This document shows, piece by piece, positions 24,131 through 34,990 of a DNA stretch of 64,000 nt (positions within the stretch are counted from its first letter, which is position 1; every line of letters starts with the position of its first letter). Origin of the DNA: Microvenator marinus (lineage in GTDB: Bacteria > Myxococcota_A > Bradymonadia > Bradymonadales > Bradymonadaceae); assembly GCF_007993755.1 (NCBI RefSeq), contig NZ_CP042467.1, positions 1,650,001 to 1,714,000 on the forward strand, read 5' to 3'. The notes beneath the pieces were generated by a model. The model was not told where the DNA came from. It ran no database searches and saw nothing but the letters and a program-made list of their open reading frames with translations. Position numbers and translations under genes: made by a program.

Positions 24131-25087
24131 TCAACCGTTCGATAATTTAAATAGCGAACTTACAGAATCACCACCGTGGACACGTCGAATTGCCTCACCA
24201 AAGAGGTCTCCGACACTACATATCTGTATTTTTTCACAGCCTCTGGCTGCTTCGCTCAAAGGAATTGAGTCCGTGACGAAAACGCGTTTCAGCACAGAAT
24301 TAGAGATCCGTTCGATCGCAGGGCCGCTCAACACGGGATGGGACGCTGCTGCATAAACCTCAGAGGCACCGTGCTCCAGAACAGCGGCAGCCGCCTGAGT
24401 GAGTGTCCCTGCTGTATCGATCATATCGTCTACGATGATCGCGTGTTTGTCTTTCACGTCACCGATAAGATGCATGGCGTGAGCCACACCTGGTGCGCTG
24501 CGACGCTTGTCCACGATCGCCAACGGACATCTGAAGACGTTTGAGTAATGGCGCGCGCGCTCCACCCCTCCAGCGTCCGGCGAAACAAACACGAGTTTGT
24601 CAGACGGAATCTCGAGAGAGCGCAACGAGTGAATGAGAACCGGACTCGCGTAGATATTGTCTACTGGCTTCGTAAAGAAACCCTGAATCTGGCTCGCGTG
24701 GAGGTCCATCGTGATCACACGCGAAAAACCGGCCGCCTGAATCAAGTCAGCAATCAGCTTCGCAGTGATGGGCGTTCGAGGCTTTGCCTGCCTATCTTGG
24801 CGCGCATAGCCAAAGTAGGGGATCACAGCAGTGATCTCGTCAGCTGATGCACGCCGAAGCGCGTCACCCATAACGAGGAGCTCCATCAAATTATCATTCA
24901 CGGGCCAAGAGAGCGTCTGGATCAGGTAGGTTTGACGATGGCGGACGCTGGTCTGAATTTCGACCTGAATCTCACCGTCAGCAAAACGCCCGACCATCGC
25001 ATCGCTCATGTTCAAACCCAGATAGCTCGCAATGGCGGAGCTGAGTGCGGGATTTGAGTTTCCCGCAAAAAGCATCATATCACTCAT
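24131..25087 (-). CDS. prs: ribose-phosphate pyrophosphokinase
   Basis: The 318-residue product makes PRPP from ribose 5-phosphate and ATP. Visible landmarks are FAGNSNPAL, GRFADGEIQVEI, the catalytic flexible loop around GYARQDRQAKPRTPITAKL, and the PRPP-binding IIVDDMIDTAGTLTQAA. The ATG at 25087 (MSDMMLFAGNSNP) is chosen because an upstream in-frame start runs into the terminator and the tRNA-Gln gene. PRPP feeds purine, pyrimidine, His and Trp synthesis. Confidence 0.95.
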   Translation of the reverse strand: MSDMMLFAGNSNPALSSAIASYLGLNMSDAMVGRFADGEIQVEIQTSVRHRQTYLIQTLSWPVNDNLMELLVMGDALRRASADEITAVIPYFGYARQDRQAKPRTPITAKLIADLIQAAGFSRVITMDLHASQIQGFFTKPVDNIYASPVLIHSLRSLEIPSDKLVFVSPDAGGVERARHYSNVFRCPLAIVDKRRSAPGVAHAMHLIGDVKDKHAIIVDDMIDTAGTLTQAAAAVLEHGASEVYAAASHPVLSGPAIERISNSVLKRVFVTDSIPLSEAARGCEKIQICSVGDLFGEAIRRVHGGDSVSSLFKLSNG

Positions 25088-25109
25088 GACAAAGCCTCTG
25101 GGTGAGAAC

Positions 25110-25143
25110 AAAAACGCAGGCGCTACCTTTCGGTAAGCCTGCG
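25110..25143 (-). terminator. terminator after tRNA-Gln
   Basis: On the minus strand CGCAGGC and GCCTGCG (25137-25143 and 25115-25121) pair, with an inner TACC/GGTA stem, followed by TTTTTG. It ends transcription after tRNA-Gln and before prs. Confidence 0.65.
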
Positions 25144-25159
25144 TGATGGCGAGAGCCAA

Positions 25160-25231
25160 CAGGGGTGCTAGGATTCGAACCTAGGAATGCCGGTACCAAA
25201 AACCGGTGCCTTACCACTTGGCGACACCCCT
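25160..25231 (-). tRNA. tRNA-Gln (anticodon TTG)
   Basis: The reverse strand folds into a cloverleaf: acceptor AGGGGTG/CACCCCT (25225-25231 with 25161-25167), anticodon stem CCGGT/ACCGG around loop TTTTGGT with anticodon TTG, and a T-arm CCTAG-GTTCGAA-CTAGG. The discriminator is G and CCA is not encoded. Placement upstream of prs is a conserved neighbourhood in related bacteria. Confidence 0.93.
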
Positions 25232-25300
25232 ACACTCGAAGAGGTACATCTCCGAGGCGGGCGACTGTCTATCACCCGTCAAAATACGTGTCAAGCAACT

Positions 25301-26125
25301 TTAGAAACAAGCGCCCCATCCAAGTGATTCTCCCGACGAATTGCGCATAATCTGGCATGTCGTGGACTCGGGACACGTGTCGACTTCTTCATCTGGATTG
25401 CAAATTTGTTTGCAAGTTAAATCACTTGCGCCCGTCCCGGCACAACGGAAACCTTCATTGCACTCGTTTGAATTTTCGCACGTCACGCCAGGTTCGGCTT
25501 CCGGATCAAAGATCCCACACCGAGTTCCATTGTCCGTGGAGTAACATTCGCGATCGGCCGGGCAAGAATCGGGGAAGAACGTACACTCATTGGTGGCCAG
25601 AAAACATATTCCAACACGACTCTCTCGCCCGAACGGACGACACGTGTAGTCCGGCGCACATTGGGGCTGGGCATCCGATCCCGTGCGACAATACTCAACG
25701 CAGACGCTCTCGCCACCTTCTGGGGCGAGGCAAGTCAACCCTGCCCTACAATCCGAATCGGCTTCACACGGCGTGTCTTGAATGCCTGCACCCGCATCCA
25801 CGCAAGATACTTCAAATCCCTCTGCGTTTTCCTCAGTGACGCAGGCCTCACCGGAATCACAACCCCTCTGACAAAGGGGATCGCAGACACCAATCTCGGG
25901 ATCGAGGAGATCACAATCCGGAAGTGGCCCGGTGGTGTTGTTCGTTTGAGTAGCCGACTGATTGGTCGACGGTAGTGTGGCGTTATTGGACGTGTTCGTC
26001 TGAGTATTGTTCGTATTGGTCTGATTATTCGTCCCAACCGACATATTGTTCGTACTGGCGGGAGGAGCTGTATCGTCTCCGCACGCCACAAGCAGACTCA
26101 CGATGGCAAGGTAGATCCAACGCAT
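25301..26125 (-). CDS. Cys-rich lipoprotein, tandem array member 1
   Basis: MRWIYLAIVSLLVAC gives a lipobox with Cys15. A long Asn/Thr linker (TNNQTNTNNTQTNTSNNAT...) follows, then about 190 residues with many Cys in spaced pairs (CDLLDPEIGVCDPLCQRGCDSGEACV, CRTGSDAQPQCAPDYTCRPFG). The disulphide-rich repeats recall EGF/Kazal-like modules of surface proteins, but no family is certain. It is the last of five related genes. Its ribosome-binding region lies inside a terminator-like hairpin, so it may be expressed at a lower level. The protein is probably anchored to the outer membrane and exposed. Confidence 0.75.
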   Translation of the reverse strand: MRWIYLAIVSLLVACGDDTAPPASTNNMSVGTNNQTNTNNTQTNTSNNATLPSTNQSATQTNNTTGPLPDCDLLDPEIGVCDPLCQRGCDSGEACVTEENAEGFEVSCVDAGAGIQDTPCEADSDCRAGLTCLAPEGGESVCVEYCRTGSDAQPQCAPDYTCRPFGRESRVGICFLATNECTFFPDSCPADRECYSTDNGTRCGIFDPEAEPGVTCENSNECNEGFRCAGTGASDLTCKQICNPDEEVDTCPESTTCQIMRNSSGESLGWGACF

Positions 26126-26157
26126 AAAAAAATCTCATCTCTTGAAGGAGATGAGAT
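26125..26157 (-). terminator. terminator-like hairpin abutting a start codon
   Basis: ATCTCATCTC (26132-26141) pairs perfectly with GAGATGAGAT (26148-26157). On the minus strand the stem is followed by seven T and then the ATG of the downstream lipoprotein. It may act as an attenuator or make the two genes separately controlled. Confidence 0.6.
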
Positions 26158-26185
26158 CTTAGCGTCAAAACTTATGGCGCTCAAC

Positions 26186-27169
26186 TTACATTCCCATCAA
26201 GCAGGCACCGAACGGCAATGCACCATTAGGCCCTTGGAGGGTAGTACATTGCTCACCTTCCGCGCACTGGTCAGTGGAGCCAGTTTCGCAGAAATTGCGG
26301 CACGTGGTTGAACCTTGCGGTCCTACGCAGCCTTGACCATCGTTACATTCGTTTGGACCTGCACACGCAGCACCGACAGTTGCATCCGCCTTAAAATCGA
26401 TGCAACGCAATCCCACTTGTGTGAGATAGCAATTCTGTCCCTCAGCACAGCTATCATTCGGGAACTGTGTACATTCGTCTTCCGGAGTCTCACAGATCCC
26501 GGCGCTTCCGTCTTGAGTAATTGGTGCGCAGACATCGCCTGTGGCGCAGGAGGGCTCTCCACCCGACGGACGGCAGAATTTGATACATGTACCAGTCGTT
26601 GCACCCTGAGCGGTAGGCACACACATCATGCCCACTTCGCAAAGGTTCGCACCGCTGCACTCCTCACCTTCACCCGCTGTGCCAGTTCCTACGCAACCGG
26701 TCTGAGGTGCCGATGCGGTACCACCAGTGATGGCGCAAGATTGACCGGCTGCGCATCCAGTCTGACAAACTACGTCGCAGGCCCCAGCGAGTGTCGAAGG
26801 CACACACTCGTCTGGATTGTTATTCGTGTTGTTCGGATCAACAGTCGTGTTGTTGTTCGTGTTGTTCGGATCAACGGTCGTATTGTTGTTCGTATTGTTC
26901 GGATCAACAGTCGTGTTGTTGTTGTTGGTATTGTTCTGGTTGTTCGGGTTTCCAGTTGTCGAGACGCAATAACCACTGGTGCACATCTCTCCGGCACCAC
27001 ACACACCTGCGTTGCATGGGGAGAGACATTGTGCGGGGCTTGCGCCAACTTGCACGAGGTCTTGACCAGCTGGGCACGATGAATCTTTCGAATCATCGCC
27101 ACACGCACCAAGAATCATTACGCACGAAAGTGCAAACACGCTACTCAACCTTAAAACTGACTTTTTCAT
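26186..27169 (-). CDS. Cys-rich lipoprotein, tandem array member 2
   Basis: The 327-residue protein starts at 27169 (MKKSVLRLSSVFALSCVMILGAC) with AGGAG upstream; a longer frame is unlikely. The lipid-anchored Cys is in LGAC. The linker holds three exact 11-residue repeats (TTVDPNNTNNN). The rest is Cys-rich with the same spacing as its neighbours (CDVVCQTGCAAGQSC, GEECSGANLCEVG). It is paralogous to the other four and has no enzymatic motif. A surface adhesive or structural role is the simplest reading. Confidence 0.75.
   Translation of the reverse strand: MKKSVLRLSSVFALSCVMILGACGDDSKDSSCPAGQDLVQVGASPAQCLSPCNAGVCGAGEMCTSGYCVSTTGNPNNQNNTNNNNTTVDPNNTNNNTTVDPNNTNNNTTVDPNNTNNNPDECVPSTLAGACDVVCQTGCAAGQSCAITGGTASAPQTGCVGTGTAGEGEECSGANLCEVGMMCVPTAQGATTGTCIKFCRPSGGEPSCATGDVCAPITQDGSAGICETPEDECTQFPNDSCAEGQNCYLTQVGLRCIDFKADATVGAACAGPNECNDGQGCVGPQGSTTCRNFCETGSTDQCAEGEQCTTLQGPNGALPFGACLMGM
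26826..26924 (-). repeat. three 33-bp tandem repeats in lipoprotein linker
   Basis: Units 26826-26858, 26859-26891 and 26892-26924 are near-identical and encode 11-residue Asn/Thr/Val/Asp units in frame. The copies differ by single bases, which suggests slippage-type length variation. Confidence 0.8.
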
Positions 27170-27212
27170 CTTTTCTCCTGACCAGGCTTGGTTCATCCAA
27201 TCGAACCGATTA

Positions 27213-28418
27213 TTACTCGCAATAGTTATCTACACACATTGCCGTACATGGGGTCGTACCATTACAACAATCTTGTACTTCATTTCCAGCACTACATGGG
27301 ATTCGGCAAAGGCCCGCGTCTGGCCCTGAATCAATGCACTCAAACTCGCCGCACGAATCTGCATCAAGTGGATCGCACTCTGGTAAGCAAAGCCCGAGTC
27401 CAGCAGGACCCACATAGGGGTCACAGAGGGCGGCTGGGGTCAAACCGCTGCAATCATTGCCACCAGGCCTGCAATAGGGAATGCAAAACGCTTGTCCCTC
27501 CCCAAAGTCTTGGCACAACGTGCGGTCGCCACACCAACTTCCCGCCGGGGAACAAGACTGAAACGCCGCTCTTGGTGGACTCGTCAACGTGTTTGTGCAA
27601 AGCGCCTGTCGCTCGGTGACGAGTTCGCCACAAGCCTGCTGTGCACCACAGCTACCGACTTGGAAGGGGTCACATAGTCTCCGGCATACTCCCGCAGTGC
27701 TTGACCCGTCCGTATCGCAGAAGAATCCCTGCCCGCATTGATTATTGGAAGAGGTGCAGGCCGAACCCTCAGGCAAGTTTCCTCCCGGAAAGCAGAGGCC
27801 GAAATCATCGAGGAATTCGAGACAGGTTTGGGCGCCACACTCGGCTGTCGAGGTACACTCAGACTCGACACAATAGTTCGCATCACTGGTCGAGTTGACG
27901 GCGAGGCAGAATTGGCCGGCGCCACAACTCGAACGACTGCCTCTCTCTTCGCAAGATTGAAAGCATCGTCCTTCATTCGAACCGCTCTCAACAAGACACA
28001 AGAACCCTTCTGGTTGTGCCCCCTGACATCGGTCGCCAACTTGTGTGCAAGCCGGAAACTTACAGCCATTTTCGGTGCAAACTTGTGGTGCCACGCAGGT
28101 GGGCGAACAAGCGCTTTCACAAACCCCGGCCACGCAAGTTTCGTTGGGTCCGCACTCCGGAGAGCACGTTTCGCTCAAGTCGGGCTCCAGATCTGGTTCT
28201 CCGCCTTCGTCTGGCAAAGTTTCCATGTCAGGTTCCGGCTCAACCCCTTCATCGGGGACAGAAAAATCCGGAGCGCTTCCAAGGTCCGGCGAGATGCAGA
28301 TTCCGTCTACACATTGCCCGGGAAAGCACTCTGCGTCTTCCACACACTGGACTTCGGGAGCCTCGGCCGTCGCGCAACCAAAGAGCACCAATGCAAAAAG
28401 CAACCCGAATCCACGCAT
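27213..28418 (-). CDS. Cys-rich lipoprotein, tandem array member 3
   Basis: The 401-residue protein begins MRGFGLLFALVLFGC, a lipobox ending at Cys15, with AGGAG upstream. A short Asp/Glu/Pro-rich linker (PDFSVPDEGVEPEPDMETLPDEGGEPDLEPDL) replaces the Asn/Thr linkers of members 1, 2 and 5. Cys-rich modules follow (CSPECGPNETCVAGVCESACSPTCVAPQVC), with 'C..G..C' spacing like EGF-type repeats. Paralogous to its neighbours; function unknown, probably surface-exposed. Confidence 0.75.
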   Translation of the reverse strand: MRGFGLLFALVLFGCATAEAPEVQCVEDAECFPGQCVDGICISPDLGSAPDFSVPDEGVEPEPDMETLPDEGGEPDLEPDLSETCSPECGPNETCVAGVCESACSPTCVAPQVCTENGCKFPACTQVGDRCQGAQPEGFLCLVESGSNEGRCFQSCEERGSRSSCGAGQFCLAVNSTSDANYCVESECTSTAECGAQTCLEFLDDFGLCFPGGNLPEGSACTSSNNQCGQGFFCDTDGSSTAGVCRRLCDPFQVGSCGAQQACGELVTERQALCTNTLTSPPRAAFQSCSPAGSWCGDRTLCQDFGEGQAFCIPYCRPGGNDCSGLTPAALCDPYVGPAGLGLCLPECDPLDADSCGEFECIDSGPDAGLCRIPCSAGNEVQDCCNGTTPCTAMCVDNYCE

Positions 28419-28499
28419 ACATTCACTCCTATGTCATGAAATGTAGGGCGGTGATTGAACACGGTTCCCACCAGAATGTCAAATGAGGTGCATCAAGAC

Positions 28500-31205
28500 T
28501 CATCGCGGGTCGCGACAAACCCCCAGATCGGCCACCAGAGCCGCACATTCCATTCCGGCCGGGCACGTCGACTGCGAGAGGACTCCGTTCGAATCCGGTC
28601 CTTCGTACTCGCAGAACCTGAAACAAAGATTTCCCGCCGGATCCGCGACGCAAATCGAATCTTGGCCACACGCCTCGCCAGGGCGCGTACAGGGAGCTCC
28701 CGGCAATGCAGACTCCACGACCGGCGCACAATGCCCGACATCCGCGCTATAGGGGTAGTTGAAGAGACACGTCTCTCCGTTTGCACACCCAGTGCCCGAG
28801 AACGGATCACAACGCAACGTACACGTCGGAACCAATCCTTGCGCCCCCACATATGGCGAAAGCAACGAGAACAAGAAGTCCGTCTGTGCCGAGCGCGGAT
28901 AGAGACACTCGGCCTGAGGCACACAATCGGCTCCCGAGCACATCTCTCCGGGCGCTATCAGTCCAGAAGCGGAACAATACGTCGGCTCATCGCGTACCGA
29001 AGGCTCGGAAGCACCCACGGTTTCCAAGACAAGAGAGGCACTAGGCAGACACGAATTCTGTCCCGTTGGGCAGCTCGCATCACCGAACATTTCTGACTCG
29101 CACGCAACAGCGCATTCCCCAGCGATAAGTTCGTCGTCAATCAATTTGCATTCGCGTCCAGCCTCGCACCCAAAAGTGCCATCGGTGGCGCATAGGCTAT
29201 GACACACGCCTCTTAACTGAGGGTCGAAGTCCGGCGCCGCGTTCCCGTATTCCTGGCAATAAAGGCCTCGTTGGCATTGAGCGATACCGAACGGGTTACA
29301 CTGACTTCCCTCAACTTTTGAGCCGATCGGAGCGCAAATATCTTTCCACTCAGCCGTGTCGTCCAAGAAGACGGGGGCGCATCCCATCCCCTCTCCCTGA
29401 CAAGTCTCCGCGTTGAGGTAAGACTCCGACGACTCGCAAGTTTGCTGACAAAACCCGAAAACATCATTCCCCAAAGAAGAGCAAATGAACCTATCGCCAC
29501 CGGTTGGCTCAAGAGGCGCAGGTATTGGCAAATTTACGATTTCGAGAGCAGCACTATCGAGGGCGTCCAATGTGCCGCTCACGTAGTTTGCGTCTCCAGC
29601 CGTTAAGCCGAGTTCCGATATAATCAGCGCGGAGAACCTCGTCCTTTCGGCACCCGCCTCGAATACCAACACGTCACCTTCGAATGCCGAAGCCTCTACG
29701 CTCACCCCGGGCTCGAGCCCCTCAACGAAGAGAGTTTGGTTTTGGTCATTGGGTTCTTCTCCACTCGGTACCCCGACAAGATCGAGTGGCCCAAGATCTG
29801 TGGAGGCATGAATCACGGATACCGATCCCAGGGCGAACTCCCTCGCTCGCACTTCTGGCTCAGACCCAGCCGCCAGAATCTCAATCTCATAAGTGCCTCC
29901 GCTCTCGGCATCGAAGACGAACTCGGCGAGCGGGACGTCGGTGGAAGGGCCTCCTGCTGGTCTTAACGCGAGCGTCGTTCTTCCAGGTTCGATCTCAAAC
30001 ACGCCATCATTGAACTGGCTTCTCGGTTCGAGTTGGCCTGCCAGAGAGTCGCCCACATAAACGTCAAACTCCTCCAGATCGGTCGCGAGGTGTGCCAAAA
30101 CAATACCTGCCGGGTCTACGGGCGGATTGGGACAGCGCGAATCTCTCAAGGCTTGCGTGGTTGGACTCACTGAACCATCGGCCTCCGCCGGTGCGTCACG
30201 AATATCACAAATCGGATGGCATCGAGCCTCGCCGGCCAGACCCTGTGCTACATTTGGCTCCTGAAGCACCACGCAGAACGTCCCGTCCTCGCATTGAGAC
30301 GCGCCTGGCTCACATCGCGAAAAGGCGGGCAAATTACCCGACGGTACACAAAGCCCAAGATCCGCTGCCACTGGTTGGCAAGATTGGCCTTCGCCACACT
30401 CACCCTGGCTAAATGGCTCACACTGCTCCCCGCAGAAACCTGTATCCGGGCCTGCGATCGATTCCTCAGCCAGTAGACAATCACCACTTGCGCAAGAGCT
30501 ATTCTGGTCGCAGAGGGCACGGCAGATACCACCCAAACACCCAAGACCAGGCGAACATAGGTTGGAGATATTTCCAGATATCAAGGCCTGATCGAGTGCA
30601 GAACAAGACTCCCCTTCAGTGCGAGGTCCTGCCGCGAAACAATAGGACGCGTCGTTCCCAGCGTTGGCGCAGATGGCGCCGTTCGGAAAGTTTGGATCTC
30701 CTTCATAGAGTGCGCGACACGTATCCAATCCTGCGATTGGCCCCTCACACTCTGAAGGCTGGCAAATGGTGTCTCTGCAGGCACCAAACTGACACGCTTG
30801 ATTCGCCCCGCACTCATCGTTGGAGGTGCAAGCCGGGTCGAGACTTGACTCCACAAAGAAGCAGAGTGAACCACCTGCACATTCTCCGGCCTGACATTGT
30901 TCGTAACAGGAAGCCGAGACACCGTCGAAGCTTAGACATAGGAATCCGTCATTTGTCTCAAATCTCGGATCACAAGCTTCTTGAGGAGCCTGACACTGTA
31001 TGGGAGGCGTTGTGCACGCGCCGTCAACACAGGCCAGTCCTGCGGGACAACCACCTGGGCATTCCCCTGCATTGACGCAGAGCCCAGATTCGGCGTTGCA
31101 AACGCTTCCCTCTGGACAGCCCCCCGGACAATCATCATCGCAGCCGGAACAACCGCTGAAAACTAACAAGAAGAAGAGGCCCACTATACTGATTAAAACG
31201 CGCAC
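28500..31205 (-). CDS. Cys-rich lipoprotein, tandem array member 4 (largest)
   Basis: This 901-residue protein is the largest in the array. It starts at a GTG (31205) with AAAGGA upstream; MRVLISIVGLFFLLVFSGC gives the lipobox. CPGGCPEGSVC and similar modules repeat through the chain, interrupted by an insert at about residues 365-570 with few Cys (LEEFDVYVGDSLAGQLEPRS..., resembling a DUF4397-like beta domain: VSVIHASTDLGPLDLV). That insert makes it different from the others. I infer a large modular surface protein. No catalytic motif is seen. Confidence 0.75.
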   Translation of the reverse strand: MRVLISIVGLFFLLVFSGCSGCDDDCPGGCPEGSVCNAESGLCVNAGECPGGCPAGLACVDGACTTPPIQCQAPQEACDPRFETNDGFLCLSFDGVSASCYEQCQAGECAGGSLCFFVESSLDPACTSNDECGANQACQFGACRDTICQPSECEGPIAGLDTCRALYEGDPNFPNGAICANAGNDASYCFAAGPRTEGESCSALDQALISGNISNLCSPGLGCLGGICRALCDQNSSCASGDCLLAEESIAGPDTGFCGEQCEPFSQGECGEGQSCQPVAADLGLCVPSGNLPAFSRCEPGASQCEDGTFCVVLQEPNVAQGLAGEARCHPICDIRDAPAEADGSVSPTTQALRDSRCPNPPVDPAGIVLAHLATDLEEFDVYVGDSLAGQLEPRSQFNDGVFEIEPGRTTLALRPAGGPSTDVPLAEFVFDAESGGTYEIEILAAGSEPEVRAREFALGSVSVIHASTDLGPLDLVGVPSGEEPNDQNQTLFVEGLEPGVSVEASAFEGDVLVFEAGAERTRFSALIISELGLTAGDANYVSGTLDALDSAALEIVNLPIPAPLEPTGGDRFICSSLGNDVFGFCQQTCESSESYLNAETCQGEGMGCAPVFLDDTAEWKDICAPIGSKVEGSQCNPFGIAQCQRGLYCQEYGNAAPDFDPQLRGVCHSLCATDGTFGCEAGRECKLIDDELIAGECAVACESEMFGDASCPTGQNSCLPSASLVLETVGASEPSVRDEPTYCSASGLIAPGEMCSGADCVPQAECLYPRSAQTDFLFSLLSPYVGAQGLVPTCTLRCDPFSGTGCANGETCLFNYPYSADVGHCAPVVESALPGAPCTRPGEACGQDSICVADPAGNLCFRFCEYEGPDSNGVLSQSTCPAGMECAALVADLGVCRDPR

Positions 31206-31279
31206 GACTTTCCTTTCTTTGGAATCGTTGCATCCTACTCAGAATTCAGCCTCAGATCACGCAACACGTGGTTCTCCAA

Positions 31280-31316
31280 GAAAAAAGGCAAAAAAAAGCC
31301 CGGCAGAGCCGGGCTT
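31280..31316 (-). terminator. intrinsic terminator after lipoprotein member 5
   Basis: AAGCCCGGC (31296-31304) and GCCGGGCTT (31308-31316) form a 9-bp stem with an AGA loop and are followed on the minus strand by eight T. It ends the transcript of member 5, so member 4 needs its own promoter. Confidence 0.85.
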
Positions 31317-31336
31317 GTGGTTCGGACTAGTATTTA

Positions 31337-33190
31337 CTAACCCGCACACACTCCATATTCACCAATAGAGAGATCGATCACCTCCATTGTCATGGGGTCT
31401 TGGAATGAAGTCAAACACTGGCTCGTTCCTGGACATCCACTGGTTTCTCCCTCCGCTGGGTTTGGATTGCAGAGCATATAGCAGCCCGTTTCGCCAGAAT
31501 CGAACTGGATACAGAAGCCTCGATCAGCACAAGCAGTGTCTGGCGTCTCACAAGCACCGAAAGGCTGGGTCGTAGGCTGGGCCTGTCCTCGCTCCAAGCA
31601 GAAGCCATAACCAAGCGTTGGATTCAAAAGGTCGGCTACGCAATGCTCGTCGGCTGCGCAATCATCTCCAAACGGATCGCACAACATACGGCACTGGGCT
31701 GGCGCTTCGAGGTCTGCATTTGTACCTGTACCGACGTTGACGATATTGGTGCACAAGGAGCCTGGAGCACACGTGTTCGAGAAGATATCGTCACATGCTT
31801 CCCCATTTGCAACTGTTCCAGACTGTGAGCAAATCGGTACATCTGCAGGGAAACAAGTTTGAAGGCCGGCTGGGCAAGAGGTGTCGCTAAATCCACTTGG
31901 ATCGCAAGGCTCACCACAGACCCCGAGCTCGTCGAGAACTGGTTGGCAAACCTCTGTTCCAGAACATGCCAAGAGGGGGTTGGTATCTGCATCGCGAAGA
32001 TCGCAGTATGCTCGGCAGACACCCGCGGTTCCGTCGCCTGCAGCCTCACAGAATGCGCCTTCAACGCAATCTACAGAATCAGCTTGTGGGTCACATGCTT
32101 CACCAACAAGTTTGGTACCAGCGGCGTCGAAGAAACAAACATTCTCGCCACGAGCAGGGCGGCAATGGAACTCACCCGCACACGTGTTCTGGCCGTAGTC
32201 ATCCAGGCCACATCCTGCCAGGCAAACACCGTCGTTGGTCGGCGAGGCATCAAATGCTTCAAGGCAAAACCCGTCGCATGATGACTCCACACCCGTTCCA
32301 CAGCGCGGCATACAGGTGCCTGTCGTTGCACCTGCTTCAAAAGTCACACAAGTCGAGCCTTCACTACATTGTGCCGTCATTGCGGTCGCAGAACACTCTT
32401 CGTACGCAGGAATGTCGCCAGCATCAATACAGAAGCCGTCTTCTTCAAGAATCGGGAAGCAGCCCTGACCTGTTGGACATTGGCCGGTGCTGTATGAATC
32501 ACAGCCGACAACACAGGCGCCTACGTTTGCATCGAGGAAATCAGGGTCGGTATCGCCGAAGCATCGCTCACCCTCGCCGTCGCAACCCGCATCGTTGCTG
32601 CAGATTGGAGCGCAGATATCGTTGAGGCAGATATTCCCTGCTTCACACTGACTGTCGCTTGTACATGCAGCGCCTTCAGCGACGGTGCCTGCAGGCAGGC
32701 AGAGGAATGAATTGTTCACAGCGCCAATGCAAGTTGCGCCGTTCTCGAAGTTGAACGCGTCACACGAAGTTGTGTCGTTCCAACCGTTACATTGTGAAAC
32801 CGCACAGAATGTTGGCCCACCGTTTCTGGCAGCGAGACACGCCTGGCCGGATGGGCAAGGGTACTGTGCACCTTCGGCAGGTGGAGTACATGCTTGTGAG
32901 CATTTTGCGCCATCCCCAAGGTCTTCACAAACAAAACCAGCCCGAGTTGGGTCACCCACCGTACACGTTTCACCGACAGCATTACACTGTGTTCCGGTCA
33001 CCGTGGTTTCGTTGTTGGTTGGACCCGTTGTAGTAGGCGTGGTTTCGTTGTTCGTCTCGTTGTTGGTTTCCGTGGTGTTGTTGTTGGTCGGATTAGTCGT
33101 GTTGTTCCCCTTATCTCCACCGTCGTCACCACAGGCAACGGCGAGAGAGAGGCAAAACAAAACGCCCACATTTCTCAAATTTCTAAACAT
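31337..33190 (-). CDS. Cys-rich lipoprotein, tandem array member 5
   Basis: The 617-residue protein starts at 33190 (MFRNLRNVGVLFCLSLAVAC) with AGGAG upstream, a lipobox, then an Asn/Thr linker (NNTTNPTNNNTTETNNETNNET). Long Cys-rich modules follow (CTVGDPTRAGFVC, CSQACTPPAEGAQYPC, and GFCIDAGDIPAYEEC). It shares module style with member 4. The promoter at 33233 and the terminator at 31280 make it a separate unit. Likely surface-exposed; no enzymatic motif seen. Confidence 0.75.
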   Translation of the reverse strand: MFRNLRNVGVLFCLSLAVACGDDGGDKGNNTTNPTNNNTTETNNETNNETTPTTTGPTNNETTVTGTQCNAVGETCTVGDPTRAGFVCEDLGDGAKCSQACTPPAEGAQYPCPSGQACLAARNGGPTFCAVSQCNGWNDTTSCDAFNFENGATCIGAVNNSFLCLPAGTVAEGAACTSDSQCEAGNICLNDICAPICSNDAGCDGEGERCFGDTDPDFLDANVGACVVGCDSYSTGQCPTGQGCFPILEEDGFCIDAGDIPAYEECSATAMTAQCSEGSTCVTFEAGATTGTCMPRCGTGVESSCDGFCLEAFDASPTNDGVCLAGCGLDDYGQNTCAGEFHCRPARGENVCFFDAAGTKLVGEACDPQADSVDCVEGAFCEAAGDGTAGVCRAYCDLRDADTNPLLACSGTEVCQPVLDELGVCGEPCDPSGFSDTSCPAGLQTCFPADVPICSQSGTVANGEACDDIFSNTCAPGSLCTNIVNVGTGTNADLEAPAQCRMLCDPFGDDCAADEHCVADLLNPTLGYGFCLERGQAQPTTQPFGACETPDTACADRGFCIQFDSGETGCYMLCNPNPAEGETSGCPGTSQCLTSFQDPMTMEVIDLSIGEYGVCAG

Positions 33191-33323: not shown

Positions 33324-34943
33324 CTACTCTTCAGTCTTTTGCTCAAGGCGATCGCGTAGAAGATCACCGAGCGCCATGGCAGATTCTTCCTTATATTCGG
33401 TCATTTCGGACACATCACCGAGGGAGTCGCGCTTCAAGGAAAGCCCGATACGTTGCCCCTCTCGGTCAAAACTAAGCACAAGAGGTTTTACGGTATCGCC
33501 GGGCTTGACCACCTCTGTCACACGTTGAACTCGCTCTTCACGGAGCTCCGAGATGTGAATCAAGCCTTCGATTCCAGGGATGATATCGACGAACGCGCCA
33601 AAATCAGTAGTCCGTGACACCGTGACTTCGATCTTCTCTCCGGGAACGGCGATCTTGGCGGCCTGCTCCCAGGGGTCCTCGCTCAATTGCTTGAGCCCAA
33701 GGGCAAGCCTTCCTTGCTCTACGTCTACCTCAAGCACTACCGCCTCGACCTCTTGGCCGAGCTCGAGCACTTCCTCGGGTTTGACGACTTTCTTCGTCCA
33801 AGAGAAGTCAGAAATATGAATAAGGCCGTCTACACCGCTCGCTACTTCAACAAACGCGCCGAAGTCGGTGAAGTTCACAACCTTCCCGGTAACTCTAGAC
33901 CCAGCAGGGTGCTCCACAGCGAAAACCTCCCATGGATTCGGGAGGTTCCGCTTTATGCTCAAACTCAGGCGTCTTTGGTTTTGGTCGATACCAATGATTT
34001 GAACCTTCACTTCATCGCCCACATTCAAGACATCAGAGGCGTTTTGCACTCGGTCCCAAGAAATCTCGGTCACGTGGACGAGCCCTTCCACATTATCTCC
34101 GATCGCCACGAACGCACCAAAATCAACCAGGCTCGTGACTTTTCCTTCGAGGATATCTCCCTCAGTAAATCCGTCGATCGAGGTCTCCCACGGGTCATCT
34201 TGGAGCTGCTTATGTCCAAGTCCTATGCGCCCTCGCTCTTCATCCACATCGAGCACCACAACACGCACTCGGTCTCCGACCTGCATGAAGTCCGAAGGTC
34301 GCCCAACGCGTCCCCAACTCATATTGTCACGGTGAAGGAGGCCTTGCACACCAGCGCCAATCTCTACAAAAGCGCCATAACGTGTGACGGTGTGAACCAC
34401 TCCGTCAAACTGCTGGCCTGGGCTTAGCTCTTCGAGAAGCTTCTTCTTCTCGTCTTCGAGGCTCTCTTCCAACAAGGCACGTCGGCTCAGTACAAGGTCG
34501 GCATCCTTTTCATTGAACTCGATGACCTTAAAGGGCATTCGACATCCAATGAGAGGAGTCGCATCTTCGACGCGATACCGGTCGATCTGGCTCATCGGCA
34601 CGAACCCACGAACACCAACATCCACACTCAAGCCACCACGATTGACACTGAGGACTGTCCCCTCAACGACGGCACCCTCTTGGGCCCATCGCTTCAATTC
34701 TTCCCAGAGGCCAAGAGACTTTGCCTTGCGCCACGAAGCTTCCCAATACTCAGGCGTTTGGGACTCCACCAGTACTTCGATCGACTCACCCTCTGCGGGT
34801 TCTACGAGAAACTCGTCAGCTTCTACAAAGGCTGGAACATCGGAGCCGATATCAAAAAGGAACCCGTATTCGTTCTTTCCACTCAAGGTGGCGGTGACGA
34901 TGGTATTCTCGAGATTCTCGCTAGCAACTTGGACATCATTCAT
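33324..34943 (-). CDS. rpsA: 30S ribosomal protein S1
   Basis: The 539-residue product has six S1 OB-folds, seen as the recurring G-x(2)-x-x-x-FGAFV-x(4)-GL(I/V)H pattern, for example GKVTSLVDFGAFVAIG, GKVVNFTDFGAFVEVA and VTVSRTTDFGAFVDII. It binds mRNA leaders on the 30S subunit. I choose the ATG at 34943 (MNDVQVAS): AAGGG then sits nine bases upstream, while the ATG at 34952 has no spacing. It lies 38 bases downstream of thiE. Confidence 0.95.
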   Translation of the reverse strand: MNDVQVASENLENTIVTATLSGKNEYGFLFDIGSDVPAFVEADEFLVEPAEGESIEVLVESQTPEYWEASWRKAKSLGLWEELKRWAQEGAVVEGTVLSVNRGGLSVDVGVRGFVPMSQIDRYRVEDATPLIGCRMPFKVIEFNEKDADLVLSRRALLEESLEDEKKKLLEELSPGQQFDGVVHTVTRYGAFVEIGAGVQGLLHRDNMSWGRVGRPSDFMQVGDRVRVVVLDVDEERGRIGLGHKQLQDDPWETSIDGFTEGDILEGKVTSLVDFGAFVAIGDNVEGLVHVTEISWDRVQNASDVLNVGDEVKVQIIGIDQNQRRLSLSIKRNLPNPWEVFAVEHPAGSRVTGKVVNFTDFGAFVEVASGVDGLIHISDFSWTKKVVKPEEVLELGQEVEAVVLEVDVEQGRLALGLKQLSEDPWEQAAKIAVPGEKIEVTVSRTTDFGAFVDIIPGIEGLIHISELREERVQRVTEVVKPGDTVKPLVLSFDREGQRIGLSLKRDSLGDVSEMTEYKEESAMALGDLLRDRLEQKTEE

Positions 34944-34990
34944 TTTGGGCATCCCTTGGTGTGATTTTCACCGCGTGAGCGCGCGTCTTA

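Follow-up and report, generated by a model that had tools for sequence, protein, structure and literature searches.

The five tandem genes for Cys-rich lipoproteins in the genome of Microvenator marinus form a real and well-conserved array, which is new as a named architecture and ordinary in kind. Its history is best read as that of an ancient array with an old duplication of the D and E genes, one later duplication of A/B and the loss of a domain in E. The window, meaning the whole stretch of DNA that was analysed, comprised 64,000 nucleotides (positions 1650001-1714000 of the single-contig genome of 5,847,748 bases). Positions below are those of the window unless a genome is named.

Gene layout, transcription units and linkers

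The five genes, designated A to E, were located on one strand (minus) at 25301-33190. Together with the neighbouring features, they were as follows.

25159..25232, minus strand: tRNA-Gln (TTG), the conserved downstream boundary of the array
25301..26125, minus strand: A (g1), lipoprotein of 274 aa with Asn/Thr tether and Cys modules; lipobox LVAC
26129..26160, minus strand: 13-bp hairpin and U-tract between B and A; -20.3 kcal/mol for a 55-nt stretch, z -5.7
26186..27169, minus strand: B (g2), lipoprotein with short Cys stretch, (TNNNTTVDPNN)n linker and Cys modules; lipobox LGAC
27213..28418, minus strand: C (g3), lipoprotein of 401 aa with Asp/Glu/Pro linker and about 50 Cys; lipobox LFGC
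28500..31205, minus strand: D (g4), lipoprotein of 901 aa with N-terminal Cys arm, tandem DUF4397 and C-terminal Cys arm
29478..30143, minus strand: predicted Cys-poor tandem β-sandwich (DUF4397 pair) in D, residues 355-576; from the model, PF14344, Foldseek and homology with the E insert
31296..31316, minus strand: intrinsic terminator between E and D, 9-bp GC-rich stem with T-run; z -3.9
31337..33190, minus strand: E (g5), lipoprotein with CGDD and Asn/Thr tether and two homologous Cys-rich arms; lipobox AVAC
33324..34952, minus strand: rpsA (S1 domains), the upstream boundary in M. marinus, genome G004 and the g2-genus genomes

The initial annotation had described five tandem genes in the same direction, each with a lipobox and Cys-rich modules, encoding products of 274-901 aa, and all of these open reading frames were found where it had placed them. 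The Cys content of the five proteins ranged from 8.7 to 12.7%. E is 617 aa long from the ATG that follows AGGAG, with the start at 33190 as annotated previously. B is 327 aa long from the ATG after AGGAG (start 27169), or 336 aa from an upstream ATG. The lipobox of D reads FSGC, or ends at a second Cys three residues on (CSGC). None of the five proteins matched a Pfam or NCBIfam profile above its cut-off, and no named family of either collection covers the whole architecture of D and E, that is, two Cys arms around a DUF4397 pair. Pfam matches to herpesvirus, alphavirus and trypanosome proteins were rejected as low-complexity or under cut-off.

The array is interrupted at two points and does not form one operon-like unit: there is a strong terminator between E and D, and between B and A a strong hairpin is followed by a U-tract. 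At 26126-26160 the U-tract of this hairpin touches the ATG of A, with no Shine-Dalgarno sequence between them. Expression of A may need read-through, or a leaderless message may be translated. In G004, a genome from another genus of the family, a terminator-like hairpin was located at the matching site before A, but about 20 bases ahead of the start.

The linker types agreed with those first described: A, B and E have Asn/Thr linkers, C has an Asp/Glu/Pro linker and D has no linker. The linkers of B and C come after a first short Cys-rich stretch and not directly after the lipobox. As a distinguishing trait, the linker type did not hold. Matches of the A/B profile at N-termini revealed at least 15 other M. 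marinus lipoproteins, a lower bound as it rests on profile matches, in which an acidic start and an Asn/Thr tether come after the lipobox (in genome G000, e.g. L055 9341-11368, L100-L108, L111, L113-L115 and L117); most of them showed no array-type modules in the part covered. The B linker of Persicimonas consists of DEDTG repeats, and E of two related genomes (L060 1-1260, L061 3-1331) carries long (GDEEE)n or (GDN)n repeats at a cut contig end. The linker is thus a generic tether, which occurs genome-wide and varies between genera, and linker type was ruled out as a functional signal on both grounds. The combination of lipobox, acidic residues and Asn/Thr appears to serve throughout the genome as a tether or for sorting.

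Conservation of the array across the bradymonad family

The gene order rpsA-E-D-C-B(-A)-tRNA-Gln-prs-rplY-pth is ancestral and was kept across the bradymonad family. In G004, all five genes were present as 1:1 orthologues and arranged as in M. marinus, with rpsA on one side and tRNA-Gln/prs/rplY/pth/H-PPase on the other. The identities between the M. marinus and G004 proteins were 45% for E, 41% for D, 37% for C, 38% for B and 36% for A. The neighbouring housekeeping proteins shared 53-79% identity with those of G004, so the array proteins, at 36-45%, have diverged faster. Faster divergence is frequent for extracytoplasmic proteins. Most other genera retained subsets of the array in the same order, upstream of tRNA-Gln. 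In Persicimonas, profile searches located B, C, D and E one after the other and adjoining prs, and in genome G012 the members were spread over several contigs.

A census of 21 family genomes detected E in 18/21, D in 14/21, C in 13/21 and A/B in 7/21; several of these genomes are incomplete, and some absences may be gaps. Each member was normally present in one copy. Two copies of A/B were found only in M. marinus and G004, and a few genomes gave a second C match that was weaker or partial. In the genome presumed to be Bradymonas sediminis FA350 (G007), D was present, at about 4,286,172-4,288,886, and E, C and A/B were not detected; in those presumed to be Lujinxingia (G013/G016/G018), E was present and D, C and A/B were not detected.

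Outside the family, 36 other genomes of the class yielded no full-length D. Neither did a pattern-based scan of a genome collection of 84,980 species, which can miss distant relatives; it returned 9 loci, the majority of which are identical to bradymonad family contigs. A class-wide ancestral array was considered and rejected, as the other families examined displayed only scattered Cys-rich genes near tRNA-Gln/prs (G033, G026 and the f7 genomes). In the f7 genomes (L127, L132, L133), a protein of 535-551 aa with 14% Cys was observed near prs or on the corresponding contig, with no match to the array profiles.

Several family genomes contain two prs paralogues, which in M. marinus lie at 24131-25159 of the window and at G000:C1:105410-106336. 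An in-frame stop in the second prs of M. marinus proved to be the natural end of the gene. The array-linked prs was not found in many genera where the array persists.

Judged from the sequences, the array is ancient, with its order kept across the family, and not a recent expansion; among the duplications, the A/B split alone looks later. The initial annotation had proposed repeated duplication and module gain. The paralogy stood, and the duplication and gain proved mostly ancient: every member forms a separate line of orthologues, as a rule single-copy, with the gene order unchanged across the family. That annotation had also named a conserved single-copy family with a known role as what would speak against it; single-copy conservation was found, and a known role was not.

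Architecture of D and E and the DUF4397 insert

Profile comparisons indicated that D and E are collinear, with probabilities of 99.9% between their N arms and 100% between their C arms. The two arms are also related to each other inside one protein (98.6% in E, 94% in D). C resembled the D and E arms with probabilities of 95.5-98.7%, and A/B showed a weaker likeness to the E arms (97.0-97.7%). On this comparison of profiles, D and E are ancient collinear duplicates, in which two Cys-rich arms flank a predicted Cys-poor tandem β-sandwich.

D contains a stretch of 216 residues without Cys. The D and E inserts are homologous (99.7% probability, E 2.8e-25) and occupy the same junction between the arms. 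PF14344 (DUF4397) was matched in 5/10 D and 6/12 E family members, with best E-values of 1.8e-8 and 1.8e-18; M. marinus D by itself remained under the PF14344 cut-off (13.5 vs 30.6 bits). The insert was located at the homologous site in the D orthologues and in most E orthologues. The Cys-poor insert of the largest protein, which the initial annotation had called unusual, is therefore not unusual, given the DUF4397 pair in D and in most E orthologues. E lacks the pair in M. marinus, G004, the g2 genus and a few others, which is most simply explained by loss, perhaps more than once. Elsewhere in the M. marinus genome (G000:C1:2384402-2385655), a frame of 524 aa displayed four tandem DUF4397 matches.

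The AF2 model of full-length D had a mean pLDDT of 69 and a pTM of 0.39, and at this low pLDDT the arrangement of the arms is not readable from the model. The insert modelled alone reached a pLDDT of 85 and a pTM of 0.76. Foldseek aligned it to Pithovirus DUF4397 models (TM 0.69 and 0.66), to PepT1/2 ectodomains (TMq about 0.5) and to single AlgF domains (TMt 0.77 and 0.66). By profile in the orthologues and by its predicted fold, the insert is a DUF4397 pair. A lectin identity of the LecB/BC2L-C type was rejected, as it relied on one weak profile match (2xr4, E 0.002) and no such lectin was among the 50 best fold matches.

The Pfam family PF14344, whose likeness to the array lies in the Cys-poor insert of the D/E orthologues, has no known function; here the domain sits between two Cys-rich arms of a lipoprotein. 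AlgF and the PepT1/2 ectodomain share the tandem β-sandwich as a likeness of fold only, with about 10-17% sequence identity to the insert and no common context. No Pfam match to the AlgF family was obtained, and the scanned window neighbours were housekeeping or unrelated genes and not an alginate context. In Myxococcus, the Cys-rich repeats of TraA (PA14 + TIGR04201 + MYXO-CTERM) have been proposed as a rigid stalk that presents a β-rich domain on the surface (PMC3325183). The array proteins resemble TraA in combining Cys-rich repeats with a β-rich domain, but would be anchored by an N-terminal lipid, and no PA14 (Pfam), TIGR04201 or MYXO-CTERM (NCBIfam) match was found in them. Single modules matched Dickkopf_N (PF04706) weakly, under its gathering score (18.0 vs 25 bits), and the Cys-rich repeats of DUF7107 (PF23416) gave weak single-module matches in a few orthologues only. 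No adhesin or lectin family matched with a proper score.

Probable envelope location and possible function

A signal peptide and a lipobox ending in Cys were recognised by pattern in all five proteins and in almost every complete orthologue. Downstream of the lipobox Cys, the family proteins contain between 24 and 116 further Cys, an even number in 42/45 of them; the orthologues are not independent, and among complete proteins about 18 distinct count values were even and one was odd. In two control sets, even counts occurred in 10/18 and 7/17. The three odd counts belonged to two open reading frames cut by a contig end and to M. marinus D (77). As we infer from the sequences, the even counts support complete disulfide pairing within an oxidising compartment, in which the lipobox Cys takes no part, and they fit export. 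The description of these proteins as exported Cys-rich lipoproteins, paralogous at the profile level, was thereby borne out, and the pattern exceeds chance, with 1:1 orthologues and even Cys counts in nearly all family proteins against roughly half of the controls.

In D, the Cys number is near-constant (74-77) at about 40% identity. Taking the second Cys of CSGC as the lipidated residue lowers the count of M. marinus D to 76, and the even count in several orthologues sharing the motif suggests that this may be the site. By the rule for E. coli, Asp at +2 is an inner-membrane retention signal. Under the canonical reading, none of the five lipoboxes has Asp at +2, and a classical inner-membrane retention signal is therefore lacking. 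With the second Cys of D as the lipid site, positions +2 to +4 read DDD, which would argue for the inner membrane by the same rule.

The lipobox, the export-type Cys pattern, the domain architecture, the ancient conserved array and the predicted fold of the insert are established by sequence or model; beyond these, we infer lipidation, outer-membrane and surface location, cooperation and binding. The array proteins would be lipoproteins of the outer membrane, with complete disulfide bonding in their exported portions. In D, and in E of most relatives, the DUF4397 pair lies between two Cys-rich arms, which a lipid and, in some members, a disordered tether would fasten to the membrane. The members would act together on the cell surface. 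There, the sandwiches may bind a partner, either a protein or a polymer, with C and A/B as accessory modules. An outer-membrane lipoprotein set acting as a surface scaffold or adhesin is our tentative preference. It was favoured because all five proteins have a lipobox, the Cys counts are even, Asp is absent at +2, the insert has a DUF4397 fold, D and E are collinear and the order was kept, and further because the proteins diverge faster than their housekeeping neighbours and the group is reported to kill by contact. Outer-membrane lipoproteins can also face the periplasm, which counts against a surface location. The lack of a properly scoring adhesin or lectin match, the uneven presence of members among the presumed cultured predators, the alternative lipid site of D and the low pLDDT of its full-length model likewise weigh against this reading.

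Periplasm-facing lipoproteins that serve as assembly adaptors for polysaccharide or envelope machinery, as AlgF does in alginate acetylation, are a rather unlikely account of the array. Both AlgF domains are among the closest small structural matches of the insert, and most Gram-negative outer-membrane lipoproteins face the periplasm; however, no polysaccharide gene occurred among the array neighbours examined, and many disulfide modules with long tethers are more typical of surface proteins. It is unlikely that the members are structural, coat-like surface proteins that bind no specific ligand, a few among the many Cys-rich lipoproteins of this lineage, and that mainly a lack of rearrangement keeps the array together. 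The site beside rpsA, tRNA-Gln and prs does resemble genomic inertia, members were lost singly in genera, and weak matches to the E and A/B profiles occur at many further sites of the M. marinus genome. Against this, E and D have long been retained as single copies and the Cys number of D hardly varies, which suggests a specific, constrained fold.

A prey-recognition or contact apparatus of bradymonabacterial predation would fit a lineage of contact-dependent predators (PMC11509652, PMC7460792) in which full-length D was found and outside which no genome searched yielded it. We consider it very unlikely, as no member was kept in all of the presumed cultured predators and the same literature proposes type IV pili and a needle-less T3SS. 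E, C and A/B were not detected in the presumed Bradymonas, nor D, C and A/B in the presumed Lujinxingia, so no single member is needed for predation; since these predators share no indispensable member, a predation role is not readable from the distribution. It is similarly improbable that E-D-C-B is a lineage-specific contact apparatus in which the DUF4397 pair, held between the two disulfide-rich arms, would bind to the surface of prey or kin, and where the range of prey or partners would shift when the pair or individual members are lost. A literature search found no paper joining Bradymonas and Cys-rich proteins.

Killing by bradymonabacteria is reported to depend on contact (PMC11509652, PMC7460792). 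The array corrects the picture of a recent lipoprotein expansion, and the architecture of D and E places the uncharacterised DUF4397 domain in a definite biological context. For the bradymonad family, it provides a conserved, lineage-restricted set of candidate envelope proteins.
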